Source: Paenibacillus sp. FSL R7-0273 (GTDB lineage: Bacteria; Bacillota; Bacilli; Paenibacillales; Paenibacillaceae). From it: DNA of 64,000 bases. The DNA lies in assembly GCF_000758625.1 (NCBI RefSeq), contig NZ_CP009283.1, forward strand, positions 3,483,501 to 3,547,500, given 5' to 3'. A program made the translations under genes and the position numbers. This document shows, in pieces, positions 34,817 to 49,373 of the stretch; the stretch's first letter is position 1, and every line of letters starts with the position of its first letter. The notes beneath the pieces are model-generated. The model did not search any database, was not told the DNA's origin, and worked only from the letters and a program-made list of their open reading frames with translations.

Positions 34817-35866
34817 ATGGAAGTTTTGCTTAACAAATTATCAGAGCAGCATGAGCTGACTGAAGAAGAAATCGTCTGGTTTCTCGGGAATCTTACTCCT
34901 GAATGGAAACAGCAGCTGTACTGCCGGGCATCAGAGGTCCGTAAGCAGCAATATGGTGTAAGCGTTTACTCGCGTGGATTGATTGAGTTCTCCAGCTTTT
35001 GCAGGCAGGATTGCCTGTATTGCGGACTGCGCAGGTCCAATTCCAGTGCAGAGCGTTACCGGCTCACGGAGGAAGAAATTATCGAGTGTGCTGCGGAAGG
35101 CTATGAGCTTGGTTACCGTTCTTTTGTCCTGCAGAGCGGGGAGGATATCCATTATTCTGAGCAGATAATGACCTCCATTGTCGGAAGGCTGAAGCGGCGT
35201 TTCCCGGATGCTGCTATCACCCTGTCAGTCGGTGAACAGAGTGAAACCTTTTACCGCGCATTATATAATGCCGGAGCGGACCGCTATCTGCTGCGCCACG
35301 AGACTGCATCGCGCACCCTGTACGAATCCCTGCATCCGGGCATGTCGTTCGATAACCGCATGGACTGCCTGCACATCCTCCGGGAGATCGGCTATCAGGT
35401 GGGGGCGGGCTTCATGGTCGGTCTTCCCGGCCAGACACACCGGCATCTTGCTGAGGATCTGTTGTTTCTAAAAGCATTCCAGCCCGAGATGATCGGCATA
35501 GGCCCGTTTATCCCGCATAGTGCTACACCGCTAAACGGAGCGGCAGGCGGGACGGTGGAAGATACGCTGGTGATGATCGCGATGGCTAGACTTATGGTGC
35601 CGGATGCCCTAATGCCTGCAACTACTGCAATGGGAACACTGGACCCGTCCGGCCGGGAAAAAGCGCTCCAGGCAGGGGCAAATGTCGTCATGCCTATCCT
35701 GTCACCGCTGCAGATCCGCAGCAAATACGCCCTGTATGAGCAAAAAATCTGCATGGGCGATGAACCGGAGCATTGCCGCAGCTGCCTTGAAATGCGGATC
35801 GCCGTCTCCGGCTACCGGATGGAGTTTAGCCGGGGGGATCATTGCAGCTATAAGGCACAACTATAA
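34817..35866 (+). CDS. hydE: [FeFe]-hydrogenase maturase HydE, radical SAM
   Basis: 349 residues. The radical SAM cluster motif is FCRQDCLYCGLR (CX3CX2C) near residue 63. A second, C-terminal cysteine set CMGDEPEHCRSC (CX7CX2C) corresponds to the auxiliary cluster site known from some HydE proteins. HydE works with HydG and HydF to build the diiron subcluster of the H-cluster. It lies 313 bases before the pyruvate oxidoreductase genes, with a promoter-like region between them, so hydE may be a separate transcript. ATG 34817 is the only reasonable start although no ribosome site precedes it. Confidence 0.92.
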   Translation: MEVLLNKLSEQHELTEEEIVWFLGNLTPEWKQQLYCRASEVRKQQYGVSVYSRGLIEFSSFCRQDCLYCGLRRSNSSAERYRLTEEEIIECAAEGYELGYRSFVLQSGEDIHYSEQIMTSIVGRLKRRFPDAAITLSVGEQSETFYRALYNAGADRYLLRHETASRTLYESLHPGMSFDNRMDCLHILREIGYQVGAGFMVGLPGQTHRHLAEDLLFLKAFQPEMIGIGPFIPHSATPLNGAAGGTVEDTLVMIAMARLMVPDALMPATTAMGTLDPSGREKALQAGANVVMPILSPLQIRSKYALYEQKICMGDEPEHCRSCLEMRIAVSGYRMEFSRGDHCSYKAQL

Positions 35867-35873
35867 AACAGTA

Positions 35874-35917
35874 AGTGAATATTTTCACTATATAGAATGA
35901 ATTTGAAAACTTATATT
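35874..35917 (+). promoter_or_regulatory. Fnr-like site and -10 box before the oxidoreductase-hydrogenase operon
   Basis: AGTGAATATTTTCACT (35874-35889) is a perfect inverted repeat of form AGTGA-N6-TCACT, 8 of 10 matches to the Bacillus Fnr consensus TGTGA-N6-TCACA. TATATT (35912-35917) would place the start near 35924, putting the palindrome centre at about -42, the classical class II activator position. No good -35 is seen, as expected for an activated promoter. It predicts induction without oxygen. Confidence 0.55.
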
Positions 35918-36144
35918 AAGGGAAGAGTGGCGGAGGGGAATTTTGGAACTGGAGGAGCGGGAGCGACCGTCTGAAAGCTTTTCGCAGAAAAGCTCGCTAC
36001 GGAAGCATATGCTGTCTGCGGATTTCTACCGCGTAAAGCGGTTCTAATCAAGAAATCTGCAGACAACAGCGGCTGGAAGTCCAAACATTCTCTGGAGTCA
36101 CGGTCAATCCCAAAATATATGACCATTTCATTCTAAATTTGAAA
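35900..36144. repeat. candidate small mobile or interspersed element with hairpin
   Basis: AATTTGAAA occurs in direct orientation at 35900-35908 and 36136-36144, like a 9-bp target duplication, and TAGAATGAA/TTCATTCTA (35893-35901, 36127-36135) are inverted. Between them lies a strong hairpin: TCTGCGGATTTCT (36015-36027) against AGAAATCTGCAGA (36051-36063), with an inner ACCGC/GCGGT stem. No reading frame here looks real. The element fills most of the gap between hydE and the oxidoreductase genes. It reminds me of intergenic repeats seen in Paenibacillus genomes, but this is from memory and unproven. Confidence 0.45.
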
Positions 36145-36179
36145 TATGAGCTTACCGTCACACTGAAGGAGGAAACCCG

Positions 36180-37172
36180 TTGTCTACCCTGACCAAGAAA
36201 AATGCACTCGGCTTCTATGAAATCCGCCTGGAGTCCATCGGCGGGCTTGGCGCCAACCTGGCCGGCAAAATGCTGGCCGAGACCGGAGCGCTGGAGCTGG
36301 GCTTCAATGCCGCGAACTTTTCGTCCTACGGCTCGGAGAAAAAAGGCTCACCCGTCAAAACCTTTGTCCGGTTCTGTGATCCGGAAATGGAGATCAGGGA
36401 TCATAGTCCGATTGAGCAGCCGCATCTGATCGCCGTTTTTCATGAAGCGCTGTACAAGATTGTGAATGTCGCCAGCGGACTGCAGCCGGATGGGGTCATT
36501 CTGGTCAATACCACCCGCGGCTTCGATGAGGTGCGGGCCAGTCTTGGCGTTGAATCCGGTACCGTGGCGCTGATTGATGCGATGGGCATTGCCGTAGAGG
36601 AGAAGACCAAGATTAACACAGCGATGCTAGGTGCGATGTTCCGCATCTGTGATTTTCTTGATCCTGAAGCGATGCGCACCGTTATCCGGCGGACGTTTGA
36701 GAAGAAGTATCCGCTGCTCGTGGAGCCCAACCTCCGCACGTTCGACCGGGGCTACAATGAGGTACAGTTCATGACCTATGACGTACCGGAGGGCTCACAG
36801 ATCAAGCCCTTTAAGCGGGTGCAATCGCTGCTTGGATATAAAACACAGGTGCCCGGCGGCGTAATTACGGCACAAGGCAACAGCATATTAAAGGATCTGA
36901 GCGGCTCACGTGCCGGACTTTTGCCGGAGTTCCATGCAGATACATGCATCAGCTGCGCAGCCTGCGATAATGTCTGCCCGGATTACTGCTTCGTGTGGGA
37001 AGCGGAAGCCGATAAACGCGGGCGGATGCAGCAGGTATTGAAGGGCATCGACTACCAGTACTGCAAGGGCTGCCTGAAATGTATAGAAGCCTGCCCGACC
37101 GATGCGCTGACCAGCCTGCGTGAAGAGCCGGGATATGCCGAGCAGCACCGTGTTGCCCAAGTGTTCTGTTAA
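36180..37172 (+). CDS. 2-oxoacid:ferredoxin oxidoreductase, fused gamma and delta subunits
   Basis: 330 residues. Residues about 10-190 are the gamma (catalytic, CoA-handling) domain: EIRLESIGGLGANLAGKML and FSSYGSEKKGSPVKTFVRF. The end (about 255-315) is a delta-type ferredoxin with two [4Fe-4S] motifs, CISCAACDNVCPDYC and CKGCLKCIEACP. The start is TTG 36180, with AAGGAGG 7 bases upstream. With the alpha-beta fusion 22 bases downstream it makes a full enzyme that oxidises a 2-oxoacid, most likely pyruvate, to acyl-CoA and CO2, reducing ferredoxin. Pyruvate is inferred from the hydrogenase context. Confidence 0.88.
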   Translation: MSTLTKKNALGFYEIRLESIGGLGANLAGKMLAETGALELGFNAANFSSYGSEKKGSPVKTFVRFCDPEMEIRDHSPIEQPHLIAVFHEALYKIVNVASGLQPDGVILVNTTRGFDEVRASLGVESGTVALIDAMGIAVEEKTKINTAMLGAMFRICDFLDPEAMRTVIRRTFEKKYPLLVEPNLRTFDRGYNEVQFMTYDVPEGSQIKPFKRVQSLLGYKTQVPGGVITAQGNSILKDLSGSRAGLLPEFHADTCISCAACDNVCPDYCFVWEAEADKRGRMQQVLKGIDYQYCKGCLKCIEACPTDALTSLREEPGYAEQHRVAQVFC

Positions 37173-37194
37173 TTGAAGAGGGAGGAACTCACCA

Positions 37195-39495
37195 ATGGCT
37201 GTTAGTGAAAATCAATTATCCGGAGCATTGCCGGCTGAGCAGGTCACCTGCTTCGAATCCGGCAATGAAATGGCGGCAACCGCTGCTGCGCAAATTAACT
37301 ATCATATAATGGGCTACTTTCCGATTACCCCCTCGACCGAGGTTGCCCAATATCTTGACCAGATGAAAGCACGCGGCCAGCATGATATTCAGCTCGTTGC
37401 CGCAGACGGTGAGCATGGCTCGGCGGGAATCTGCTATGGGGCTGCAATGGCAGGCGCGCGGGTGATAAACGCAACCAGCTCCCAAGGCTTCCTGTACATG
37501 CTGGAGCAGCTGCCCACCCAGTCGGGAACCCGGTTTCCGATGGTGCTGAACCTTGTAACCCGTGCGGTTAGCGGTCCGCTGGATATCCGCGGCGATCACT
37601 CAGACCTCTATTACGGCTTGAACACAGGCTGGGTTATTCTGACGGCAAGCACACCGCAGGCGGTCTATGACATGAACATTATGGCGCTGAAAATAGCGGA
37701 GCATTCAGAGGTGAGGCTGCCGGTAATGGTCGCGTATGACGGATTTTTCACCTCGCATCAGAAGCGCAAGGTCAAATATTTTAAGAACAATAGTGTCGTT
37801 CAGGGCTTTGTCGGGCCGAACCCGAATCATAGGAATCATAGCTATCCGAATGTGTCTGACCCGGCCCGTCCAGTCACTATAGGTGCCCATATGGGCGGGG
37901 ATGATCTGCTGAACAACCACTATCAGCTGTCTGAAGCCCTGGAGAAAGCGGGCGGGGTGTACAGTGAGGTTGCCAGAGACTATGCGTTGCTCTCCGGCCG
38001 GGAATATAAGGTGCTCGATCTGTACCGGATGGAGGATGCTGAATACGCTTTATTTCTGCTTAACTCCGCCGGTGAGACAGCCAAAGATACCGTGGACCAG
38101 CTGCGTGCCCAAGGCATTAAGGCCGGGCTGATCCGGCCGAACATCATCCGCCCGTTCCCGGCAGAACAGCTGCGCGGCGCACTTAAGAACGTCAAAGCGC
38201 TGCTTGTGGGTGAACGTGCCGATTCCTACGGCGCCCAAGGCGGAAATCTCACCCATGAAATCCGTTCGGCGCTGCAGGCTGATCCCGATAACAGCACGAT
38301 TGTCCTCTCCCGGATCTTTGGTCTGGGCGGCAAGGATTTTTATGCCGATGATGCAGCAGCCTTTTTCGGGCTGGCAATCGATGCGGCCGCAAAGGGCTAT
38401 GCAGAGAAGCCTTTTGACTACTACGGCTACTATCCGGGCGAAGAAAAGGATGCTCTCACCCCCGTAATGGAGCCGCTTCACGGCAATGCTTACAAAACAG
38501 GTCTGATTCAGGTCACACAGAATGAAGCAACCGGACTGCTCAAGGTGAAGCTGCCGCCACTCCGGCAATTGACCGTGAAGCCGCACCGGCTCGCTCCCGG
38601 ACATGGCGCTTGTCCCGGCTGTGGTGCGCTGTCGGCGCTGGAGCTCTTTTTTAAAGGCATCGAAGGGGATATGGTTGTGCTCTTCCAGACCGGCTGCGCT
38701 TATGTGGTGACTGCAAGCTACCCGTATTCCTCGCATAAGCAGACCTTCGTGCACAATCTGTTCCAGAACGGGGCAGCAACGCTGGCCGGTATGGTGGATG
38801 CGTTCTATGAACTGAAACGGCGCGGAGAGATCCAGGTTGCGGATGATGTCACCTTTGTCATGGTCTCCGGGGACGGCGGCATGGATATCGGGATGGGGGC
38901 AACCGTAGGTGCAGCGCTGCGTAATCATAAAATGATCATTCTGGAATATGACAACGAAGGCTATATGAATACCGGCTCGCAGCTGTCCTACAGCACCCCT
39001 GTGGGGCACATGACCAGTACGTCAGGCGTCGGCGTAGCCCAAAAAGGCAAAAAAGGCCATCACAAGGATACCGCCCAAATTCTCGCCGCCTGCAACATTC
39101 CTTATGTGTTCACCGGAGCGGAGAGCAATCCCCAGGATCTGCTGCAAAAAGCGGCCAAGGCCCAGTGGTACGCCAACAACACCGGAACCGCATACGGAAA
39201 AATACTCTGCGCCTGTCCGCTCAACTGGAAAACGCCGGATGATCAGGGCAATGAGCTGGTGAGGGCGGCGGTGGATTCCTGCTTTTTCCCGCTGTATGAG
39301 ATTGAACAGGGCATCACCCGCATCACCTATAATCCGGAGGACAAAGGCAAACGTATTCCTGCGGTAGACTGGCTGAAGCGTATGGGCAAAACGAAGCATC
39401 TGGTGAAGGACGCGGAGCTGCTGCAGGATTTTGAGAAGGAAATTGAACGCCGCTGGAGCCGCCTGAAGCTTAGACATGAGCATGAGCTGCTCTAA
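37195..39495 (+). CDS. 2-oxoacid:ferredoxin oxidoreductase, fused alpha and beta subunits (probably pyruvate)
   Basis: 766 residues. The alpha part (about 15-400) opens with ESGNEMAATAAAQINYHIM and GYFPITPSTEVAQYL, typical of PorA-type domain I. The beta part (from about 455) has the cluster-ligand start PGHGACPGCG and the thiamine diphosphate motif SGDGGMDIGMG near residue 558. Together with the gamma-delta gene upstream this equals a single-chain PFOR in total size but is split between delta and alpha. ATG with GGAGG upstream. It is the source of reduced ferredoxin for the hydrogenase encoded next. Confidence 0.9.
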   Translation: MAVSENQLSGALPAEQVTCFESGNEMAATAAAQINYHIMGYFPITPSTEVAQYLDQMKARGQHDIQLVAADGEHGSAGICYGAAMAGARVINATSSQGFLYMLEQLPTQSGTRFPMVLNLVTRAVSGPLDIRGDHSDLYYGLNTGWVILTASTPQAVYDMNIMALKIAEHSEVRLPVMVAYDGFFTSHQKRKVKYFKNNSVVQGFVGPNPNHRNHSYPNVSDPARPVTIGAHMGGDDLLNNHYQLSEALEKAGGVYSEVARDYALLSGREYKVLDLYRMEDAEYALFLLNSAGETAKDTVDQLRAQGIKAGLIRPNIIRPFPAEQLRGALKNVKALLVGERADSYGAQGGNLTHEIRSALQADPDNSTIVLSRIFGLGGKDFYADDAAAFFGLAIDAAAKGYAEKPFDYYGYYPGEEKDALTPVMEPLHGNAYKTGLIQVTQNEATGLLKVKLPPLRQLTVKPHRLAPGHGACPGCGALSALELFFKGIEGDMVVLFQTGCAYVVTASYPYSSHKQTFVHNLFQNGAATLAGMVDAFYELKRRGEIQVADDVTFVMVSGDGGMDIGMGATVGAALRNHKMIILEYDNEGYMNTGSQLSYSTPVGHMTSTSGVGVAQKGKKGHHKDTAQILAACNIPYVFTGAESNPQDLLQKAAKAQWYANNTGTAYGKILCACPLNWKTPDDQGNELVRAAVDSCFFPLYEIEQGITRITYNPEDKGKRIPAVDWLKRMGKTKHLVKDAELLQDFEKEIERRWSRLKLRHEHELL

Positions 39496-39520
39496 ATCGG
39501 GATGGAAGGGAGCCGTCTGA

Positions 39521-40021
39521 GTGGAACAACATCAACCTTGCAGCAACAGTACGATTGCCGAAGCCGACCGGAAGCTGGAGCAGATCAAGCTGGCCATTGA
39601 CCAGTTTAAGCAAATGAAAGGCGCATTGATCCCTGTATTGCATGAGGTTCAGGATGTATACGGGTTTTTGCCTGAGCCTGTGCTACAGGTGGTGTCGGCA
39701 GAGCTTGATTTGCCCATGAGCGAAATTTACGGTGTTGCGTCGTTCTATCATTTCTTTTCGCTTACCCCAAAGGGGGAGCATGTTATCCATGTCTGCATGG
39801 GCACCGCCTGCTACATTAAGGGGGCTCAGGGCATTCTGGACCGGCTCAGCACAGAGCTGAAGGTTCCGGTTCAGGGAACGACAGAGGACGATAAATTTAC
39901 GCTGGAAGCGACGCGCTGCCTGGGAGCCTGCGGGCTGGCCCCTGTACTGACCATCGGGGAAAAGGTGCATGGACGCCTTACGCCGAACGCCGTGCCTAAA
40001 ATGCTTAAGGAATATAACTAG
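39521..40021 (+). CDS. hydC: NuoE-like [2Fe-2S] subunit of trimeric [FeFe] hydrogenase (HydC)
   Basis: 166 residues. A thioredoxin-like fold with the four ligands as CMGTAC and, about 35 residues later, CLGAC. GTG start with AAGGGAG upstream, 26 bases after the oxidoreductase gene. In HydABC-type bifurcating hydrogenases this subunit passes electrons between NADH-linked flavin and the other clusters. The name follows that system, based on neighbours. Confidence 0.9.
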   Translation: MEQHQPCSNSTIAEADRKLEQIKLAIDQFKQMKGALIPVLHEVQDVYGFLPEPVLQVVSAELDLPMSEIYGVASFYHFFSLTPKGEHVIHVCMGTACYIKGAQGILDRLSTELKVPVQGTTEDDKFTLEATRCLGACGLAPVLTIGEKVHGRLTPNAVPKMLKEYN

Positions 40022-40061
40022 TTCCCGCAGTACACGCAAATAGTTAACGGGAGGTATCGGC

Positions 40062-41939
40062 ATGAAGCTGTTAACGGATCTTGATGCCATCCGCACGCTT
40101 ACCCAGGGACGGCTGGATAACCGGAGGATTAGCGGGGCATCAGGAGAATCGGTTTCGTTCAGGTCAGTGATGGTATGCGGGGGCACAGGCTGCACATCGT
40201 CGGATTCCAATAAAATCATCGCTGCACTGGAGCATGAAGTCGCCGGCCGCGGCATCCAGACTCAGGTAGAGATCGTACGCACCGGCTGCTTTGGGCTGTG
40301 TGAGCTGGGTCCGGTTGTAATTGTCTATCCTGAGGGGATTTTTTACAGCAGGGTGGAGATCAAGGATATTCCGGCGCTGGTCGAGCAGCATCTGGTCAAC
40401 GGCAAGCCGTATGACAAGAAGATTTATGAGAAGACCCGCCAGGGCGATGAGCTGCTGAATTTTGAAGAAACGGATTTCTACAAAAAACAGGTACGGATCG
40501 CGCTGCACAACTGCGGTGTGATCGACCCTGAAGTGATAGATGAGTATATTGCCAGTGACGGGTACCGTGCGCTTGCCCAAGTGCTTACAACGATGAGCGC
40601 TGAGCAGGTCATTGACACCGTAAAAAGATCCGGCCTTCGCGGCCGGGGCGGCGGCGGCTTCCTGACCGGACTAAAGTGGGAGTTCGCAGCCCGGCAGAAC
40701 AAGCCGCAGAAATATGTCATCTGCAATGCCGATGAGGGCGATCCGGGGGCGTTCATGGACCGTTCGATTCTGGAAGGCAATCCGCATTCCGTTATTGAGG
40801 CGATGGCGATAGCCGGATATGCCATAGGGGCGAACCAGGGATTCATCTATGTGCGGGCAGAATATCCGATTGCTGTTCAGCGGTTCTCGAAAGCACTGGA
40901 TCAGGCCAGGGAATATGGACTGCTGGGCGATGATATTTTCGGGACGGGGTTTGCTTTTAACATTGAGGTGCGTCTGGGTGCAGGCGCATTTGTCTGCGGG
41001 GAAGAAACCGCGCTGATTCACTCGATTGAAGGACACCGGGGGATGCCGACGCCCAAGCCGCCGTTTCCGGCTGTTGAAGGGCTGTGGGGCCAGCCGACCA
41101 TTATCAACAATGTGGAGACGCTGGCCAACATCGGCCAAATTATTCTGAACGGGGCAGAGTGGTACGCCGCAATCGGAACAGAGAAGTCCAAAGGCACGAA
41201 AGTGTTCGCGCTTGGAGGCAAGGTGGTGAATACCGGTCTGGTTGAGGTCCCGATGGGTATTACGCTGCGGGAGGTTATCTTTGAGATTGGCGGCGGCATT
41301 CCCGGCGGCAAAAAATTCAAGGCTGTCCAGACCGGCGGCCCGTCCGGCGGGTGTCTGACTGAGGAGCATCTGGACTGCACGATTGATTTTGATACGCTGA
41401 CCAGCCTTGGCTCGATGATGGGCTCAGGCGGGATGATCATCATGGATGAGGATACCTGCATGGTCGATGTTGCAAGGTTCTACCTGGATTTCACCAGAGA
41501 TGAATCGTGCGGCAAATGTACCCCGTGCCGGATCGGAACGAAGCGGCTGCTGGAGATGCTGGATAAGGTCACTTCCGGCAAAGGCACGCTGGAGGATCTA
41601 GAACATATGGAGCAGCTGTCCCTGCAGATCAAGAATGCATCCCTGTGTGCACTCGGGCAGACGGCTCCGAACCCGGTTCTGTCGACTTTAAAATATTTCC
41701 GTGAGGAATATCTCGCTCATATAACGGACAGCAAATGCCCGGCAGGTGTTTGCAAAGCGCTGATCTCCTATGAGATTGATGCCGGGCTGTGCCGCGGCTG
41801 CAGCCTATGTGCCCGGAAATGCCCGAGCGACGCGATTTCCGGCAAGATGAAGGAGCCGTATGTGATCGATAAGGCGGCCTGCATTAAGTGCGGCGTCTGC
41901 TTCGATGTATGCAAGTTCAAGGCGGTAGCGATAGTCTGA
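40062..41939 (+). CDS. hydB: NuoF-like flavoprotein subunit of trimeric [FeFe] hydrogenase (HydB)
   Basis: 625 residues. Domains in order: N-terminal thioredoxin-like [2Fe-2S] (GGTGCTSS, RTGCFGLCELG), the FMN and NADH-binding NuoF core (GRGGGGFLTGLKWEFA, then CNADEGDPGAFMD), an SLBB domain, the N3-type cluster site ESCGKCTPCRIG near residue 480, and two C-terminal ferredoxin motifs (CRGCSLCARKCP, CIKCGVCFDVCK). This plan is that of the bifurcating HydB subunit, where NAD(H) meets the ferredoxin path. ATG with GGGAGG upstream. The catalytic subunit gene follows. Confidence 0.93.
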   Translation: MKLLTDLDAIRTLTQGRLDNRRISGASGESVSFRSVMVCGGTGCTSSDSNKIIAALEHEVAGRGIQTQVEIVRTGCFGLCELGPVVIVYPEGIFYSRVEIKDIPALVEQHLVNGKPYDKKIYEKTRQGDELLNFEETDFYKKQVRIALHNCGVIDPEVIDEYIASDGYRALAQVLTTMSAEQVIDTVKRSGLRGRGGGGFLTGLKWEFAARQNKPQKYVICNADEGDPGAFMDRSILEGNPHSVIEAMAIAGYAIGANQGFIYVRAEYPIAVQRFSKALDQAREYGLLGDDIFGTGFAFNIEVRLGAGAFVCGEETALIHSIEGHRGMPTPKPPFPAVEGLWGQPTIINNVETLANIGQIILNGAEWYAAIGTEKSKGTKVFALGGKVVNTGLVEVPMGITLREVIFEIGGGIPGGKKFKAVQTGGPSGGCLTEEHLDCTIDFDTLTSLGSMMGSGGMIIMDEDTCMVDVARFYLDFTRDESCGKCTPCRIGTKRLLEMLDKVTSGKGTLEDLEHMEQLSLQIKNASLCALGQTAPNPVLSTLKYFREEYLAHITDSKCPAGVCKALISYEIDAGLCRGCSLCARKCPSDAISGKMKEPYVIDKAACIKCGVCFDVCKFKAVAIV

Positions 41940-41956
41940 CGATAGGAGTGATCAGC

Positions 41957-43693
41957 TTGAACACGGTCAAAATCATGATCGACGGGATCGAGACGGAAAT
42001 CGTCAAAGGCACCACAGTGCTGGAAGCCGCCCGGGATCAAGGTATAAATATCCCTTCCCTTTGTTACCTGCAGGGAGTTAATCATTCCTCCAGCTGCCGT
42101 GTCTGTGTGGTCGAGGTCGGCCCGCGGCTTATCGCCTCCTGTACGCTGATCGCCGAGGAAGGCATGAAGATCCAGACGAATACGAAAAAGGTCCGCGATG
42201 CCAGGAGAACCTCGGTAGAGCTGCTGCTCTCCGATCATGACCGGGAATGTCTGAGCTGCTCACGGGGCGGCAATTGCGAGCTGCAGAGTGTATCAAATTC
42301 GCTTAACATCCGCAAAGTGACATATACCGGTGAGCATTCGAGCAGGGAAAAGGATTATTCGTCTCCGGCAATTGTACGGGATGCCTCCAAATGCATCCTC
42401 TGCGGGCGTTGTGTCGGCGCCTGCGGTACTGTGCAGACCGTTGGCGCTATCGGTTTTGCCAAGCGGGGCTTTGACACCGTAATCTCTACAGCCTTCGGCC
42501 GTCCGCTGGCAGAGTCAACCTGTGTCAACTGCGGCCAGTGTATTATGGCCTGTCCGGTCGGTGCTTTGACCGAGCATGAGAGTATCCGCGATGTATGGGA
42601 TGCCATCGCTGACCCGGACCAGTATGTCGTTGTGCAGACGGCCCCGGCTGTCAGGGTAGCCCTTGGCGAAGAGTTCGGCCTGCCGGTCGGTACCCGCACA
42701 ACCGGCAAGATGGTTGCCGCGCTGCGCCGGCTCGGCTTCGATAAGGTATTTGACACCGTTTTCGGGGCGGATCTGACCATTATGGAGGAGGGCACCGAAC
42801 TGCTTTCCCGACTGTCTAGCGGACAGAATCTCCCTTTGATGACCTCCTGTTGTCCTGGCTGGGTGAAGTTCATGGAGCATAACTTCCCTGATATGCTGGA
42901 TAACCTGTCCACCTGCAAGTCGCCGCATGAGATGGAAGGGGCAATGGTTAAATCTTATTTTGCCGGCAAGCTTGGAATAAATCCGCAGAAGATCACCGTT
43001 GTATCGATCATGCCCTGTACGGCCAAGAAGTTCGAAGGTGCACGTGAGGAGCTGTCTAATCATGAAATGCAGGATGTGGACTGGGTGCTCACGACCCGTG
43101 AGCTGGCTGCGATGATTAAGGAGGCTGGGCTTGACTTTGTAAATCTGAAGGATGAGGAGTTTGATAACCCGCTCGGTGTAGGCTCTGGAGCCGGTACCAT
43201 CTTCGGGGCGACAGGAGGAGTATCCGAAGCGGCATTGCGTACCGTCTTTGAGCTGGTCTCCGGACAGACGCTCGACTCTATTGAGTACATCGCTGTACGC
43301 GGGATGGATGGCATTAAGGAGAATACGGTCGAGCTGCCGGACGGCCGCAAGATTAGGACAGCTGTTGTCCACGGGCTCGGCAATGCCCGCAAGTTAATGG
43401 AAGCTATGCAGCGCGGAGAAAAGAGTTATGACTTCATGGAAGTCATGGCCTGCGCCGGCGGCTGTATTACAGGCGGAGGCCAGCCGATTCTAAACGCGGC
43501 GGACAGCAGCCGGCTGGATGTCAAAGCGCTGCGCGCCAAAGCGATTTATTCCGAGGATGAAGCCCAGACTGTCCGCAAATCCCATCACAATCCGTTCATC
43601 AAGCAGCTGTACGCTGAGTTCCTCGGCGAGCCGAACAGCCATCTGGCCCATGAGCTGCTGCACACGCATTATACGGTGCGGACGAAATACTGA
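41957..43693 (+). CDS. hydA: [FeFe] hydrogenase catalytic subunit (HydA of a HydABC type)
   Basis: 578 residues from TTG 41957 (TAGGAGTG upstream). The N-terminus carries a [2Fe-2S] domain (CYLQGVNHSSSCRVC), the His-Cys3 site (HDRECLSCSRGGNC) and two [4Fe-4S] motifs (CILCGRCVGAC, CVNCGQCIMACP). The H-cluster signatures are complete: MTSCCPGWVKF near 297, MPCTAKKFE near 352, and ACAGGCITGGGQP near 498. It reduces protons (or oxidises H2) at the diiron site made by HydE, HydF and HydG. All cluster ligands I could check are present, so the enzyme should be active. Confidence 0.95.
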   Translation: MNTVKIMIDGIETEIVKGTTVLEAARDQGINIPSLCYLQGVNHSSSCRVCVVEVGPRLIASCTLIAEEGMKIQTNTKKVRDARRTSVELLLSDHDRECLSCSRGGNCELQSVSNSLNIRKVTYTGEHSSREKDYSSPAIVRDASKCILCGRCVGACGTVQTVGAIGFAKRGFDTVISTAFGRPLAESTCVNCGQCIMACPVGALTEHESIRDVWDAIADPDQYVVVQTAPAVRVALGEEFGLPVGTRTTGKMVAALRRLGFDKVFDTVFGADLTIMEEGTELLSRLSSGQNLPLMTSCCPGWVKFMEHNFPDMLDNLSTCKSPHEMEGAMVKSYFAGKLGINPQKITVVSIMPCTAKKFEGAREELSNHEMQDVDWVLTTRELAAMIKEAGLDFVNLKDEEFDNPLGVGSGAGTIFGATGGVSEAALRTVFELVSGQTLDSIEYIAVRGMDGIKENTVELPDGRKIRTAVVHGLGNARKLMEAMQRGEKSYDFMEVMACAGGCITGGGQPILNAADSSRLDVKALRAKAIYSEDEAQTVRKSHHNPFIKQLYAEFLGEPNSHLAHELLHTHYTVRTKY

Positions 43694-43722
43694 GCAATTA
43701 TATGCTAAGGAGGATGGCTCAT

Positions 43723-45147
43723 TTGCGCAAGGATTGGGAACCGGCGGACTTCATCGACGACGCGGAGATTACAGCCAGCCTGCAGGAAGCGGTGCGGACG
43801 GCCGGGAACAGGAGCGTAGTCCAGTCTATTTTGGATAAAGCAAGAGCCTGCAAGGGGTTAAGCCACCGGGAAGCGGCAGTGCTGCTGGAGGTCAGGGATG
43901 AGGAAATTTTGCAGGACATTTACAAGTCAGCGAAGGTCATTAAGGAGAAAATCTACGGCAACCGCATCGTCCTGTTTGCGCCGCTGTATATTAGCAACTA
44001 CTGTGTCAATAACTGCGAATACTGCGGGTATAAGCACTCCAACCAGGATTTTGTACGCCGGAAGCTGAACAGGGATGAGCTTGCAGCTGAGGTGCGTGTG
44101 CTGCAGGAGCTGGGGCATAAGCGTCTGGTCATTGAAGCGGGTGAAGATCCCGTCCATTGTGATATTGATTATGTAACCGATTCCATTAAAACGGTGTATT
44201 CCGTCAAGGTCAACAACGGCAGTATCCGCCGGGTTAATATCAATATTGCGGCAACTACAGTCGAGGATTACCAGAAGCTGCGGGATGCGGAGATTGGGAC
44301 TTATATTCTTTTTCAGGAGACCTATCACAGGCCGACTTATGCTGCGCTGCACAAGAACGGGCCGAAGCATGACTATGACTGGCACACAACAGCGATGGAC
44401 CGGGCACAGCTCGGCGGTATTGATGATGTTGGTGTAGGCGTATTGTACGGACTGTATGACTACAAATACGATACGGTCGCTATGCTGATGCATGCCGAGC
44501 ACCTGGAAGAACGGTTCGGCGTAGGGCCGCATACCGTTTCAGTACCGCGTCTGAGGGAAGCAGCCAATGTAAGTCTGGAAATGTATCCTTATCTGGTTAA
44601 GGATGAGGAGTTCAAGCAGCTGGTTGCCGTTCTGCGGCTGGCGGTGCCCTATGCGGGCATGATTTTATCTACCAGGGAGGAGCCGTCGTTCCGGGATGAG
44701 GTTATCCAGCTCGGAATTTCCCAGGTCAGTGCCGGATCGAGCACCGGGGTCGGCGGATATATGGAGGCGAAGCAGGGTACAGCGGGGGCGTCAAAAGAAA
44801 AGCCGCAATTCGAGGTGGGCGACCACCGTTCACCGGAGGAGATTATCCGCGGGCTGTGCAGGGACGGCTATGTTCCCAGCTATTGTACAGCCTGCTACCG
44901 GGAGGGGCGGACGGGCGACCGGTTTATGCGGCTGGCCAAATCGGGGCAGATCCATAATGTCTGCCAGCCGAACTCGCTTTTGACCTTTAAGGAATATTTG
45001 CTTGATTATGCCGATGCAGAGACACGGGCGCTGGGAGAAGAAATTATCCGCAAGGGGCTTGATGACATTCCGAAGGAAGCAGCACGGAAAATCACCCGTG
45101 AACGGCTGCAGCGGCTGGAGAACGGTGAACGGGATCTGCGCTTTTAA
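43723..45147 (+). CDS. hydG: [FeFe]-hydrogenase maturase HydG, radical SAM tyrosine lyase
   Basis: 474 residues. The radical SAM motif is CVNNCEYCGY, and the C-terminal auxiliary cluster set is CTACYREG...C (CX2C and a Cys 22 residues on), the site where tyrosine-derived CO and CN are assembled on iron. I choose TTG 43723, because AAGGAGG ends 9 bases before it; ATG 43714 abuts this ribosome site and ATG 43702 precedes it. It lies 29 bases after hydA in the same operon. Confidence 0.95.
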   Translation: MRKDWEPADFIDDAEITASLQEAVRTAGNRSVVQSILDKARACKGLSHREAAVLLEVRDEEILQDIYKSAKVIKEKIYGNRIVLFAPLYISNYCVNNCEYCGYKHSNQDFVRRKLNRDELAAEVRVLQELGHKRLVIEAGEDPVHCDIDYVTDSIKTVYSVKVNNGSIRRVNINIAATTVEDYQKLRDAEIGTYILFQETYHRPTYAALHKNGPKHDYDWHTTAMDRAQLGGIDDVGVGVLYGLYDYKYDTVAMLMHAEHLEERFGVGPHTVSVPRLREAANVSLEMYPYLVKDEEFKQLVAVLRLAVPYAGMILSTREEPSFRDEVIQLGISQVSAGSSTGVGGYMEAKQGTAGASKEKPQFEVGDHRSPEEIIRGLCRDGYVPSYCTACYREGRTGDRFMRLAKSGQIHNVCQPNSLLTFKEYLLDYADAETRALGEEIIRKGLDDIPKEAARKITRERLQRLENGERDLRF

Positions 45148-45171
45148 TAGAAGCATAAGGAGAGATTGGCC

Positions 45172-46371
45172 ATGCAAACCACACCGCAGCCGGGCAAGAT
45201 GCACATCGCAGTCTTCGGCCGGCGCAACTCCGGGAAGTCCAGTCTGATCAATGCGCTGACCGGCATCCCCTATCAGGTTGTCGGCGATCAGCCGGGTACA
45301 ACGTCAGAGCCGGTGTTTCAGGCTTATGAGCTGCCCAAAATCGGCTCCGTCATCATTATCGATACGGCAGGCATCGATGGGGATAAGGATACAGGCCCCT
45401 TCCGGGTTCAGAAGACCCGCGAGGTTATGGATCTGACCGACCTCAGTCTCCTGATTTTCTCCGGTGAAGAGGATGATTACAAGCTGGAGAAGGAATGGTA
45501 CCGGGAGCTTGCCAAGCGCAACATTCCGGTGATCGGCGTTATAGCCAAGGTGGATGATCATTATGTGGATCTAGATCAGTTGAAAAGCGAGCTGAACATC
45601 CCCTTCGTCAAAGTAAGCTCGCGCAGAAACATCAACTTTGGCAGTCTGCGTCATGCGATCCGTGAATATGCCCCTGCCGAATTTGAACGTCCCACCATTC
45701 TTGGTGATCTGGTCCATCCGGGGGAAGTGGTCGTAATGGTCATGCCGGATACGATTCCGGCACCCAAATACAGGCTGGTTGCTTCCCAGCAGCAGATTTT
45801 GCGGGATTTGCTCGATCATCATGTGATGGCCCTGTCGGTTACAGAGGTTGAGCTGCCTACGTTGCTAATGAATCTGAAGGGAATGCCGGATCTGGTCATT
45901 ACCGACTCCCAGGTATATGACAGTGTGAACGAGGTACTGCCTGCCAATGTGCCGCTGACCACCTTCGCGATCCTGATGGCCCGGTTTAAGGGTGATCTCA
46001 CCACCTTCGTAAAAGGGGCAGAGGCTATTGCAACACTGCAGCCAGGAGATAAGGTACTGCTGTCCGAAGCCTGCATCCATCATCCGCATAACGGTGAAAT
46101 TGACCGTGAGCTGGTAAAAAGAAAGCTGCAGGAGATTGCCGGCGGCGGTCTTGAGATCACAGCAAGCGTTGGTCCTGATTTCCCGGCAAATCTGTCAGGC
46201 TATAAGCTGGTCGTACATTGCGGCGGCTGTATTTTCAACCGCAAGCAGCTGATGAACCGGCTGACGGACTCCGGGGCCCAGGGGGTGCCGATCACGAATT
46301 ACGGCATTGCCTTTGCTTACTTCAAAGGTATCCTGCCGCGTGTGCTGGAGATTATGCACGTTAATTCATAA
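45172..46371 (+). CDS. hydF: [FeFe]-hydrogenase maturation GTPase HydF (first copy)
   Basis: 399 residues. The G1 loop is GRRNSGKSS near residue 16 and G3 is DTAGIDGD. The iron-sulfur ligands of HydF are kept: CIHH near residue 300 and HCGGC near 348. The G4 motif, normally NKxD, reads AKVD near residue 125, so guanine recognition may be weakened. ATG 45172 has AAGGAG 8 bases upstream. HydF is the scaffold that carries the diiron precursor to the hydrogenase. A second HydF gene lies downstream of aspA. Confidence 0.93.
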   Translation: MQTTPQPGKMHIAVFGRRNSGKSSLINALTGIPYQVVGDQPGTTSEPVFQAYELPKIGSVIIIDTAGIDGDKDTGPFRVQKTREVMDLTDLSLLIFSGEEDDYKLEKEWYRELAKRNIPVIGVIAKVDDHYVDLDQLKSELNIPFVKVSSRRNINFGSLRHAIREYAPAEFERPTILGDLVHPGEVVVMVMPDTIPAPKYRLVASQQQILRDLLDHHVMALSVTEVELPTLLMNLKGMPDLVITDSQVYDSVNEVLPANVPLTTFAILMARFKGDLTTFVKGAEAIATLQPGDKVLLSEACIHHPHNGEIDRELVKRKLQEIAGGGLEITASVGPDFPANLSGYKLVVHCGGCIFNRKQLMNRLTDSGAQGVPITNYGIAFAYFKGILPRVLEIMHVNS

Positions 46372-46384
46372 GGGGAGATCTGGT

Positions 46385-47803
46385 GTGGATACAGGCAGCG
46401 GATTCCGCCTTGAACAGGATGCGCTTGGAACAATGGAGGTACCGGTGTCTGCCTATTACGGGATCCATACAGCCCGGGCTCTGGAGAATTTTGCGGTGAG
46501 CGGCCGGAAGGTTAACCCTCAACTAATCAAAGCACTGGTAACGGTAAAAAAAGCGGCAGCATTAACGCACCTGAAGCTGAGCAGCTATCCGCCTGAGATC
46601 GCTATAGCGATTGTGCAGGCTTGTGATGAGATTCACGCAGGGGGACTTGCCGGCCAATTCATAGTGGATGCACTGCAGGGCGGAGCGGGGACATCCACCA
46701 ATATGAATGTTAATGAAGTATTGGCGAACCGGGCGATTGAGCTGCTGGGCGGGAGTCGCGGTGATTATGGCAGGGTTCACCCGCTTGACCATGTCAACCG
46801 CAGCCAGTCCACCAATGATGTGTATCCGACAGCGCTGCGGATTGCCGCGGTCGGTCTGGTCCGCAGGGTAAGTGAAGCTTTCGCTCTTTTACAGGAAGCC
46901 TTGCAGGGCAAGGAGCTGGAGTTTGCCGGAGTGCTGAAGCTGGGCCGGACGGAGCTGATGGATGCCGTTCCGATGACTGCGGGACTGAGCTTCGGTGCAT
47001 ATGCCAAAGCGATCCAGCGCGACCGCTGGCGGCTGTACAAGGCTGAGGAAAGGCTCAGGGAGATTAATATAGGCGGAACGGCAATCGGCACCGGGATCAA
47101 TGCGCCGCTCCGGTATACCTTTTATATCACGGGACAACTGCAGGAGCTGACCGGATACGGGCTGGCCCGCAGCGAATATCCGATGGACCCAACACAGAAT
47201 ATGGATGTGTTCGTGGAGGTATCCGGGCTGCTCAAGGCAGCTGCAGTGAATCTGCTCAAAATCTCAGGCGATCTGCGCCTGCTGGCAAGCGGACCGGCAG
47301 GCGGCTTCGGTGAGCTGATGCTGCCGGCGGTGCAAGCCGGATCCTCCATTATGCCCGGCAAAGTCAACCCGGTGATGGCTGAAATGCTGGGTACAACGGC
47401 GATGCGGGTGATTGCTAACGATTCAGCGGTTACACTGGCTGCCGGGAGCGGGCAGCTGGAGCTTAATGCTTTCATGCCGCTGATCGCAGATGCGCTGCTG
47501 GATTCCCTGGAGCTGCTGGATCAGGCAGTCCGCTTGTTTACCGAGCGCTGTGTAACCGGAATCCGTGTCTGTGCTGATCGCTGCGGGGAACTGCTGGAGC
47601 ATTCCACTGCACTTGCCGCTGCTTTTGTGGGTCATATCGGCTATGAACGGAGTGCAGAGATTGCCATGCAGGCCAGGGAGGGAGGGAAGTCCATCCGTCA
47701 GGCAATGCTGGACAGCGGGTTGCTCTCCGGGGAACAGATTGATCGAATATTACATCCGGATCAGCTCACCATGCCCGGTGTGCCAGGGAGAAGGAGTGAA
47801 TGA
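46385..47803 (+). CDS. aspA: aspartate ammonia-lyase
   Basis: 472 residues. The fumarase/aspartase superfamily signature GSSIMPGKVNPVMAE is present, as are the upstream segments GTSTNMNVNEV and QSTNDVYPTA that form the active site. The N-terminus (DALGTMEVPVSAYYGIHTARA) favours aspartase over fumarase. GTG 46385 has AGGGGAG 7 bases upstream. It sits between two hydF genes with gaps of 13 and 1 bases, so it is part of the hydrogenase operon. It may supply ammonium for the dithiomethylamine bridge of the H-cluster; that link is an inference. Confidence 0.92.
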   Translation: MDTGSGFRLEQDALGTMEVPVSAYYGIHTARALENFAVSGRKVNPQLIKALVTVKKAAALTHLKLSSYPPEIAIAIVQACDEIHAGGLAGQFIVDALQGGAGTSTNMNVNEVLANRAIELLGGSRGDYGRVHPLDHVNRSQSTNDVYPTALRIAAVGLVRRVSEAFALLQEALQGKELEFAGVLKLGRTELMDAVPMTAGLSFGAYAKAIQRDRWRLYKAEERLREINIGGTAIGTGINAPLRYTFYITGQLQELTGYGLARSEYPMDPTQNMDVFVEVSGLLKAAAVNLLKISGDLRLLASGPAGGFGELMLPAVQAGSSIMPGKVNPVMAEMLGTTAMRVIANDSAVTLAAGSGQLELNAFMPLIADALLDSLELLDQAVRLFTERCVTGIRVCADRCGELLEHSTALAAAFVGHIGYERSAEIAMQAREGGKSIRQAMLDSGLLSGEQIDRILHPDQLTMPGVPGRRSE

Positions 47804-47804
47804 A

Positions 47805-49088
47805 GTGAGCCTGAACGAATCTCCGCGGGCAAGCCGGCTGCATATTGCCGTATTCGGCAGGCGCAACGCCGGCAAATCCAGCCTCATCAACGTGCTGGCC
47901 AGGCAGGAGGTCTCTGTTGTATCGCCGGTCCAAGGCACCACAACCGATCCGGTCTACAAATCGATGGAGCTGCTTCCGCTCGGACCGGTGGTGCTGATTG
48001 ATACCGCCGGGCTGGACGATGAAGGTGAGCTGGGCGAGCAGCGGATGAAGAAAACGATGGAAGTGCTGTACAAAACCGATGTGGCTCTGCTTGTGATTGA
48101 CGCACTTGAAGGAGCAACAGAGTATGATGAGCGGATCGCCGGCTTGCTTAAGAGCCGGAATATTCCGGTCATCGGGGTGATAAATAAAACGGATTTGCTT
48201 GTGGTTGAAAATGCAGACCGGGATACTGCTGTGCAGGCTGATCTATACCGGGAGCAGTTCGGATTCCGGTTCATGCCTGTATCGGCTGCTGCACAGAAGG
48301 GAATAAATCCGCTTAGACAGGTACTGTCTGCAGCCGTGCCTGCTGAGGAGGACAAATTCCGCATCATTGGCGACCTGCTCTCGCCGGGAGATTTGGTTGT
48401 CCTGGTTACACCCATTGATAAGGCAGCACCAAAGGGCCGGCTGATCCTGCCCCAGCAGCAGACCATCCGCGACATTCTGGAGAGCGATGCCATAGCTGTT
48501 GTTACTAAAGAGCATGAGCTGAAGCTCACACTGGAAAGCCTCGGGCGTAAGCCGCGGATGGTTGTGACCGATTCCCAGGTGTTTCTGAAGGCAGCCGCTG
48601 ATACGCCGCCCGATGTTCCTCTTACCTCATTCTCGATCCTGTTTGCCCGTCATAAGGGCAATCTGGAGGAGCTGGTCCGGGGCGCCAGGGCCATTGACCG
48701 GCTACGGGACGGTGACAAGGTGCTGATTGCCGAGCCGTGCACCCACCATACCCAGCCGGATGACATCGGCAGCGTCAAGCTGCCCCGCTGGATCAGGCAG
48801 GCGACCGGCCGGACGCTTGAGTTCCATCATGCGAATGGAATGAGCTTTCCCGACAATGTGCAGGACTATGCACTCATTGTCCATTGCGGCGGCTGTATGA
48901 TCAACCGCCGGCAGATGCTGTGGCGGATGGAGCAGGCAGCAGCGGGCGGAGTGCCGATTGTCAATTATGGAGTAGCCATTGCCCATGTCCAGGGGATACT
49001 GGAACGGGCGATCTCCCCGTTTCCGCTGGCCCGGCTTGCCTGGGAGGAGGAGAGCGCGGCGGCCAGAACACTTACCGCTGAAAAGTGA
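47805..49088 (+). CDS. hydF: second HydF-like maturation GTPase
   Basis: 427 residues, a full-length HydF paralogue. G1 is GRRNAGKSS, G3 DTAGLDDEGELGEQ, and G4 the canonical INKTD near residue 126. Cluster ligands CTHH near residue 311 and HCGGC near 358 are intact. GTG 47805 lies 1 base after the aspA stop with AAGGAG 8 bases upstream. It differs from the first HydF at many positions, so it is not a recent duplicate. It is unclear which copy is the main scaffold. Confidence 0.9.
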   Translation: MSLNESPRASRLHIAVFGRRNAGKSSLINVLARQEVSVVSPVQGTTTDPVYKSMELLPLGPVVLIDTAGLDDEGELGEQRMKKTMEVLYKTDVALLVIDALEGATEYDERIAGLLKSRNIPVIGVINKTDLLVVENADRDTAVQADLYREQFGFRFMPVSAAAQKGINPLRQVLSAAVPAEEDKFRIIGDLLSPGDLVVLVTPIDKAAPKGRLILPQQQTIRDILESDAIAVVTKEHELKLTLESLGRKPRMVVTDSQVFLKAAADTPPDVPLTSFSILFARHKGNLEELVRGARAIDRLRDGDKVLIAEPCTHHTQPDDIGSVKLPRWIRQATGRTLEFHHANGMSFPDNVQDYALIVHCGGCMINRRQMLWRMEQAAAGGVPIVNYGVAIAHVQGILERAISPFPLARLAWEEESAAARTLTAEK

Positions 49089-49174: not shown

Positions 49175-49373
49175 GACCACGGCAAAAGTGCCTTGATTTC
49201 GGCCGAAGCGGCTTGATGCGCGAAATGAGAGGCAAAAGTGCCTTTGATTTCGCCGAAAACGGCTCAATGCGCGAAATGAGAGTCAAAAATGCCTTTGATT
49301 TCGCCGAAAACGGCTCAATGCGCGAAATGAGAGTCAAAAGTGCCTTTGATTTCGGCCGGAGCGGCTTGATGCC
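49175..49373. repeat. second array of the 51-bp repeat family (four monomers)
   Basis: Cores GGCAAAAGTGCC or GTCAAAAATGCC begin at 49181, 49231, 49282 and 49333 (spacing 50, 51, 51). They share AAATGA, the GGCAAAA-TGCC core and TTTGATTT with the array at 27,478, but the second half differs and forms GCCG-AAAA-CGGC mini-hairpins. The array directly follows an operon terminator, as the first array follows a gene end. No coding function is seen in 49,089-49,428. Confidence 0.88.

Follow-up and report, generated by a model that had tools for sequence, protein, structure and literature searches.

The DNA analysed here is a window of 64,000 nucleotides, the whole stretch from position 3,483,501 to 3,547,500 of contig NZ_CP009283.1 of Paenibacillus sp. 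FSL R7-0273, and coordinates refer to this window unless a contig position is given. Between positions 34817 and 49088 it contains ten open reading frames (ORFs), all on the + strand, in the order hydE, porGD, porAB, hydC, hydB, hydA, hydG, hydF1, aspA and hydF2. They encode a 2-oxoacid:ferredoxin oxidoreductase, the three subunits of an [FeFe]-hydrogenase (HydABC), the maturation proteins HydE, HydG and HydF, the last of these twice, and an aspartate ammonia-lyase. Most of this is known biology, and the locus is an ordinary pyruvate-to-hydrogen operon of mixed origin. The new point is the second HydF (HydF1), which is conserved in relatives and, to judge from its sequence, has an altered [2Fe] pocket.

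Gene identities were assigned using Pfam and NCBIfam scans, with hydF2 assigned by NCBIfam alone. The first gene, hydE (34817..35866), encodes a radical SAM maturase (TIGR03956, 481 bits, cut-off 254.6). The oxidoreductase is encoded by porGD (36180..37172), a gamma-delta fusion matching PF01558 and Fer4 with two [4Fe-4S] cysteine motifs, and by porAB (37195..39495), an alpha-beta fusion that includes the thiamine diphosphate domain (PF01855, PF17147 and PF02775). Next are hydC (39521..40021), encoding a NuoE-like [2Fe-2S] subunit (PF01257 and a cysteine motif), hydB (40062..41939), encoding a NuoF-like flavin mononucleotide (FMN) subunit recognised by Pfam and by cysteine motifs, and hydA (41957..43693), encoding the H-cluster subunit of group A6 (NF040763, 895 bits, cut-off 765). 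A further radical SAM maturase gene, hydG (43702..45147; TIGR03955, 693 bits, cut-off 312), is followed by hydF1 (45172..46371) and, at the end of the run, hydF2 (47805..49088). Both HydF proteins match TIGR03918 (439 and 564 bits, respectively, cut-off 325.6). Between the two hydF genes lies aspA (46385..47803), whose product belongs to the aspartate ammonia-lyase subfamily (NF008909, 625 bits, cut-off 510) and scores under the cut-off of the aspA equivalog TIGR00839.

The listed ORF starts of hydA, aspA and hydF2 were too early. They were placed at approximately 41957, 46385 and 47805, using the ribosome-binding site and the relatives for hydA, the ribosome-binding site for aspA and the relatives for hydF2. 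With these starts the spacers are 1–40 bases, the exception being 313 bases after hydE; later starts for the same three genes were also tried and gave spacers of 8–40 and 313 bases. A first-pass annotation, made by a model from the letters of the window, had described ten same-strand genes over this interval and the 313-base gap, and both were confirmed, as were the families that it named. It had also called the locus self-contained, which is not supported, as none of the ten genes encodes a separate ferredoxin (ORF list and Pfam) and the one gene for a glycine-cleavage H-protein found in the genome lies outside the operon.

Conservation of the operon in relatives

Three related lineages were distinguished. 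Clade A consists of the genome containing the window, 22 congeners with this HydA and one genome of another family (G041). Clade B comprises nine genomes of one genus, and two of its porAB rows are identical to proteins of Fontibacillus phaseoli and Paenibacillus segetis. Clade C comprises two genomes. The ten-gene order was found in all 24 clade A genomes examined, 23 of them complete and one (G025) ending inside hydA at a contig end. Because the order recurs in 23/23 other clade A genomes, the operon is not a chance arrangement. A set of 16 named loci, 15 from Paenibacillus and one from Gorillibacterium, was drawn mostly from the same genomes. Matches to porGD, hydA and hydG are each broken in two at L035 and L057 (Paenibacillus ihuae), which may reflect a frameshift or misassembly.

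The clade B operon has the order hydE-porGD-porAB-hydC-hydB-hydA-hydG, followed by hydF2 on the opposite strand, and aspA adjoins hydF2 in eight of the nine genomes. Each clade B genome examined (9/9) has one HydF, which is canonical, and no HydF1. In clade C the order is porGD-porAB-hydC-hydB-hydA-hydG-hydF1, with the aspA-hydF2 pair separate and elsewhere; the stretches examined from these two genomes showed no hydE. A second hydCBA set with another HydA type, 53–54 % identical, was seen in clade C genome G527 (L139), and no hyd maturase genes were found beside it in that stretch. The placing of the oxidoreductase with the hydrogenase, on which the first-pass annotation had built its reading, was therefore seen in all three lineages, where the two are adjacent. 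Within the stretches examined, flanking genes were common to nearer relatives only, and as a test of transfer this was set aside as not informative on origin.

Two HydF proteins with different [2Fe] pockets

HydF1 and HydF2 are 41 % identical. The first-pass annotation had listed the second HydF and had missed the difference in the pocket. Residues are numbered here as in Thermosipho HydF (5kh0) and were mapped by phmmer and by alignment. Ten residues around the docked [2Fe] unit are named in PMC13360658, which, citing Haas et al. 2024, assigns importance to Ser243 and Ser263 in the binding of [2Fe] and to Asp306 in the synthesis of the bridge. HydF2 has the P-loop, the NKxD motif, Ser243, Ser263, Asp306 and all three cluster cysteines (sites in 17/17 cassette rows, P-loop strings in 6/6 and pocket residues in 31/31 distinct sequences). 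HydF1 likewise passes the family cut-off and keeps Ser243, and differs from the family in carrying Ala263 and Glu306 in place of Ser263 and Asp306. This was the case in 22/22 distinct HydF1 sequences, in 29/29 locus rows (the window excluded, and repeat entries of the same genomes included) and in 34/34 database proteins. Ser263 and Asp306 were found in 172/172 canonical HydFs examined, made up of 31 HydF2, five HDCR, 51 phylum-sample and 85 nearest Clostridia-type proteins, the last being the sister lineage. Residue 197 in the gate loop is Gly in nearly all canonical HydFs, and in the 29 HydF1 rows it is Tyr (27, as in the HydF1 of the window) or His (2). Ser243 was Ala in 3/51 phylum-sample rows and hence is variable elsewhere.

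A held-out comparison was made on 91 columns that are conserved across 56 reference rows. The number of deviating columns was 17–22 for HydF1, at most two for HydF2, at most four for the 85 sister-lineage proteins and nine for Thermosipho HydF; in clade C the two HydF1 proteins reached 20 and 28. Twenty-three residues that are rare in canonical HydFs are invariant in HydF1. HydF1 also keeps the P-loop with its Asn, DTxG, the three [4Fe-4S] cluster cysteines and Tyr376, with the P-loop Asn and the three cysteines present in 17/17 HydF1 rows. The P-loop Asn of HydF has a role in cation use. A structure model of HydF1 had a mean pLDDT of 81.5 and a pTM of 0.63, and its best structural matches were three HydF structures at a low TM-score (0.51–0.55), with poor superposition of the domains. 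The pLDDT of the gate loop (198–202) was below 50, and no pocket geometry was therefore taken from the model.

Ancestry of the two HydFs and selection on hydF1

In a careful tree of 63 HydFs, including 20 of the 51 phylum-sample proteins, the HydF1 proteins of clades A and C grouped together (support 99/94) inside a Caloramator/Clostridium-type group (100/99). HydF2 grouped with the HydFs of HDCR clusters and with HydFs of clades B and C (100/99). An earlier tree, with 27 of the 51, agreed on the separate placement of HydF1 and HydF2. Tandem duplication of hydF was rejected because deep, supported branches separate the two copies. In a quick tree, the HydA proteins of clades A, B and C grouped with those of Caloramator, Thermobrachium and Fervidicella (100). 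A quick tree of PorAB united the copies that accompany the hydrogenase in clades A, B and C in one clade (98), with proteins of P. peoriae, P. maysiensis and strain URB8-2 interspersed among them. The HydA and PorAB trees were made without bootstrap, and their database rows were picked among the nearest matches.

The HDCR label, for clusters that combine formate dehydrogenase with [FeFe]-hydrogenase, rests on PMC6288185 and on the presence of formate dehydrogenase-, ferredoxin-type and hydrogenase genes at one locus (L042); at other loci it was given on the same hyd gene order alone. The Paenibacillus HDCR cluster described in that source shares with the present operon a HydF of the HydF2 lineage and, at L042, the same aspA-hydF neighbours. 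Unlike the present operon, it encodes a molybdopterin formate dehydrogenase and another kind of HydA, contains a single HydF, and has hydG-hydE on the opposite strand. The operon thus appears to be composite, with a maturation set from two sources. The simplest reading is that HydF1 was the original partner of this hydrogenase and that aspA-hydF2 came from an HDCR-type lineage.

For analysis of selection, rows were taken from the window and 14 of the 16 named loci as best tblastn pieces, which were full-length for hydF1. Some were partial (hydA and hydG of L057, aspA of L053), and hydE, with three rows, was not used. Over pairs with dS below 1.5 (35 of 105 pairs for hydF1), the median dN/dS was 0.10 for hydF1, 0.12 for hydF2, 0.11 for aspA, 0.07 for hydA and 0.04 for porAB. 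No internal stop was found in any of the 15 rows of each gene, hydF1 included. These values indicate that HydF1 is under purifying selection and, together with the 15 open frames, make it unlikely that hydF1 is a pseudogene.

Co-occurrence of HydF1 and HydF2

In 392 genomes of the order, the genome of the window included, HydF was found in 65 and this HydA type in 32. At least two HydFs were present in 23 genomes, all of which are among the 32 with this HydA; the other nine of the 32 are the clade B genomes, with one HydF each. The 33 genomes with HydF and without this HydA also had one HydF each. The association between two HydFs and this HydA gave a Fisher p of 1.2e-10, a value that ignores kinship among the 392 genomes. 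A canonical HydF was present as well in all 26 genomes examined that carry a HydF of the HydF1 lineage.

In a sample of 398 genomes from the phylum, judged from named relatives to be Bacillota, HydF was detected in 226 at a threshold of 1e-70, which could miss a very divergent second HydF. Two copies were found in four genomes, and two of these four carry this cassette. In the other two (G331 and G386) the copies are far apart, and Ser263 and Asp306 are present in both copies. The two HydFs of G331 (L077 and L078) were on different branches in the earlier HydF tree and on the same side in the tree of 63 HydFs; those of G386 are at L079 and L080. In a first survey of relatives, an HDCR-type cluster or a piece of one was the only source of HydF in nine genomes, and one cassette genome (G036) also carries an HDCR-type cluster.

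Hydrogenase and oxidoreductase

HydA is the sole match in the genome to Fe_hyd_lg_C, the hydrogenase large-subunit family. Its L1–L3 motifs are complete (TSCCPGW, MPCTAKKFE and EVMACAGGCITGGGQP), as the first-pass annotation had noted. HydB has 625 amino acids and contains an N-terminal [2Fe-2S] motif (C39/44/76/80), the FMN domain, the NADH [4Fe-4S] motif and two C-terminal [4Fe-4S] motifs (C577–587 and C607–617). In the translated stretch HITDSKCPAGVC, a His is found six residues before Cys559, which is followed by Cys564, and this spacing equals that of H525, C531 and C536 in PMC9304861. According to that source, nearly all bifurcating BfuB proteins have this His near the B2 cluster and non-bifurcating homologues are without it. 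The HydB of Syntrophomonas, which does not use ferredoxin, has 407 amino acids and is without the N-terminal [2Fe-2S] and one C-terminal [4Fe-4S] (PMC5626996). The NCBI name for the class of this HydA is NADH-dependent, group A6. Despite that name, the iron-sulphur architecture of HydB and the His at the expected spacing make confurcation the better reading of HydABC, which agrees with what had been proposed for it at the outset. The enzyme resembles the Bfu Type 1 HydABC of Thermotoga maritima, Moorella thermoacetica and Acetobacterium woodii in its three subunits, the architecture of HydB and the His; it differs in its setting, known here from sequence, within a Paenibacillus operon together with a 2-oxoacid oxidoreductase and two HydFs.

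PorGD and PorAB together have all four oxidoreductase domains (alpha, beta, gamma and delta). They passed the subfamily model TIGR02175 (pyruvate/2-ketoisovalerate) and reached no pyruvate-specific equivalog cut-off; pyruvate is the most likely substrate. The split into gamma-delta and alpha-beta proteins had been thought unusual, and this was rejected because the arrangement is common among relatives. Matches to porAB were found in 50 of 60 genomes searched, the genome of the window included, with the cassette present in 11 of those 50, and porGD adjoined porAB in 9/9 non-cassette loci examined. The genome of the window itself has a second porAB, 63 % identical (contig positions 4209440–4211731, L074), whose neighbours include genes for a glycoside hydrolase of family 8 and a DUF1349 protein. 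No hyd genes were found in the 17 kb examined around it.

The region upstream of porGD

The core of the Fnr site is GTGA-N6-TCAC. A palindrome, GTGAATATTTTCAC (35875..35888), lies in the gap between hydE and porGD and is a candidate operator of the Rex or Fnr type. It is the one GTGAA-N4-TTCAC site in the window, where 0.06 would be expected, and it matches the GTGAA-W4-TTCAC core of the Rex site, given as TTGTGAAW4TTCACAA in PMC2883068. The palindrome was found no more than 420 bases before porGD in 25/26 clade A loci, which include repeat entries and correspond to 18 of 19 distinct genomes, Gorillibacterium being the one without it. It was also found before porGD in 7/9 clade B and 2/2 clade C loci, and in 8/9 clade B loci there is a further palindrome before hydE. 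At por loci without a hydrogenase, the core palindrome was present in 0/9 and the looser GTGA-N6-TCAC in 4/9.

The genome contains 15 palindrome sites, compared with three for the reversed pattern. Four of the other 14 are found 78 bases before an adhE-like gene, which is followed by pyruvate formate-lyase, 105 bases before a formate/nitrite transporter gene, 87 bases before a gene for an NADH:flavin oxidoreductase, and 106 bases before a NirB-like reductase gene that reaches the end of the stretch.

A dispersed repeat about 230 bases long has one of its copies (35888..36115) between the palindrome and porGD; this copy has 62 matches in the genome, itself included. The query was 273 bases long (35869–36141) and the best other copies match its bases 20–247. 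A short way downstream of hydF2, a 51-base tandem repeat of 3.4 copies is found at 49183–49354. No RNA families scored above threshold in the window, and a scan of the window for promoter and terminator consensus sequences gave counts near the shuffled expectation.

Discussion

From the gene content, conservation, distinct ancestry, pocket changes, purifying selection, co-occurrence and palindrome described above, we infer an electron flow, a regulator, an order of evolutionary events and the whole of a role for HydF1. PorGD-PorAB would oxidise a 2-oxoacid, most likely pyruvate, and reduce ferredoxin, and HydABC would use the electrons of reduced ferredoxin and NADH together to form H2. HydG, HydE and HydF would build the H-cluster, with AspA giving ammonium for its bridging ligand, and an NADH- or oxygen-sensing regulator of the Rex or Fnr type would act at the palindrome before porGD. 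A supply of ammonium for the bridge has been put forward for a hyd operon in which aspA lies beside hydF (PMC11736057). Here too aspA directly adjoins hydF2, with the difference that it sits between two HydFs of different ancestry. As the working scaffold, HydF2 would bind the [2Fe] unit and build the dithiomethylamine bridge. HydF1, the original HydF of the hydrogenase lineage, would have given up the [2Fe] chemistry after the arrival of aspA-hydF2 and been retained for a different step. This step would probably be docking with HydG/HydE or HydABC, perhaps with HydF1 and HydF2 paired in a mixed dimer. A fermentation operon with this division of labour between HydF2 and HydF1, and with Rex/Fnr-type control, is the reading that we prefer, at a probability of roughly 0.55.

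The main argument for a change in HydF1 comes from Ser263, Asp306 and the held-out comparison, and not from the G4 motif. A docking or partner role would fit a HydF that retains the parts for the GTPase and dimerisation and has lost the handling of [2Fe]. For HydF in general, PMC7450098 reports that the GTPase matters upstream, with HydE and HydG, suggests that dimerisation also acts upstream, and has the cluster domain holding the [2Fe] unit. The more specific proposal is that HydF1 lost [2Fe] handling, keeps its cluster, dimerisation and nucleotide domain, and makes up a two-component scaffold with HydF2, either as a mixed dimer or as a relay from HydG/HydE to HydF2. This is tentative, and we rate it at somewhat less than even odds.

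Several observations weigh against the preferred reading. The mutagenesis of Ser263 and Asp306 is known here through a later citing paper (PMC13360658), and the change of Asp to Glu at 306 is conservative. Of two further candidate marks of HydF1, one was weakened and the other dropped. The first is loss of the G4 Asn, a position that is Ala in 13, Thr in 11 and Asn in 5 of the 29 rows (AKVD in the window). The HydF motif is given as [N/T]KxD in PMC9431212, so Thr is accepted and 16/29 rows fit. The second, Gly305, is also found in 72 of the 85 Clostridia-type HydFs. The clade B operon contains no HydF1, which is therefore not needed for HydABC in general, and the co-occurrence counts are not independent, as the genomes are related. 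The palindrome fits an Fnr box as well as a Rex operator, and the outer TT/AA of the Rex operator is not kept in clade A, the clade B bases being nearer to it. In the genome of the window the dispersed repeat starts where the palindrome ends, which pushes the palindrome out to -305. Ten of the 14 other palindrome sites have no shown anaerobic link; four of these are inside ORFs and the neighbours of the remaining six include a ROK-family protein.

Among the alternatives, HydF1 may be fully working, having come from the hydrogenase donor, with the pocket changes as tolerated drift and the two HydFs either redundant or providing extra maturation capacity. In its favour, HydF1 scores above the family cut-off (439 compared with 325.6 bits) with its cluster cysteines and P-loop in place, and Asp to Glu is a conservative change. 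Both clade C HydF1 proteins (L137 and L138) keep Ser263. L138 also keeps Ser243 and Asp306, which favours this alternative and weighs against the preferred reading; it has Glu for Asp242, Asp for Gln244 and Asn for His300. L137 has Ser243 replaced by Pro, Gln244 by Glu, His300 by Ala and Asp306 by Glu. Each clade C genome additionally carries a HydF whose pocket is canonical, and in two sister lines the pocket thus appears to have changed in different ways and to an unequal extent next to such a HydF, which supports the preferred reading. Also against a fully working HydF1, Ser263 and Asp306 are invariant in the 172 canonical proteins, 85 of them from the sister lineage, and replaced in 22/22 HydF1 sequences, and drift under redundancy does not predict the fixation of 23 residues that are rare in canonical HydFs. 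We consider a fully working HydF1 rather unlikely.

A different account concerns the electron flow. PorGD-PorAB could dock on HydABC and feed it directly beside free ferredoxin, as has been proposed for Por-Bfu in Chloroflexi. Clusters of Por-Bfu are named in PMC9304861, porGD-porAB adjoin hydCBA in clades A, B and C, and the ten-gene run has no ferredoxin gene of its own. On the other side, HydA carries its own H-cluster and the enzyme is Type 1 by the scheme of PMC9304861, PorGD has two [4Fe-4S] motifs of its own, and porGD-porAB pairs are widespread without a hydrogenase. Direct feeding is distinctly unlikely on this evidence.

The locus had also been taken for a transferable cassette, which would have moved as a unit. 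The presence of porGD-porAB-hydCBA-hydG together in three lineages favours this, as do the flanking genes, common to nearer relatives only in the stretches examined. It conflicts with the mixed ancestry of the operon, in which HydA and HydF1 are Caloramator-type and HydF2 belongs to the HDCR lineage. In clade C the aspA-hydF2 pair has no linkage to the rest, and in clade B it is encoded on the opposite strand. The stretches examined from clade C yielded no hydE, and the hydrogenase-linked PorAB clade also takes in proteins of P. peoriae, P. maysiensis and strain URB8-2. For aspA-hydF2, movement as a single unit is already contradicted, and for the operon as a whole we regard it as highly unlikely. 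The least probable alternative, with very little in its favour beyond the absence of HydF1 from clade B and its replaced pocket residues, is that HydF1 is a decaying relic retained for its place inside the operon, since it is present in 24/24 clade A genomes examined, has no stop in 15/15 genes, a median dN/dS of 0.10 compared with 0.12 for hydF2, and 23 specific invariant residues.

Searches aimed at a paired or pocket-altered HydF in open PubMed Central papers, with passages checked in PMC7450098, PMC5003875, PMC9431212 and PMC13360658, found no account of one; the term 'hydF1' in PMC5003875 denotes a primer for polymerase chain reaction. The roles of HydF are disputed with respect to the need for its cluster, the location of the [2Fe] unit and the purpose of the GTPase (PMC13360658, PMC12752695, PMC7450098). 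The operon provides a clear example of maturation genes for an [FeFe]-hydrogenase that appear to have come together from two sources, and the conserved natural pair of a canonical and a pocket-altered HydF lets the roles of HydF be tested apart without artificial mutants. If the proposed division of labour is true, the docking and assembly roles of HydF, which are combined in one protein elsewhere, would have been separated here by nature.

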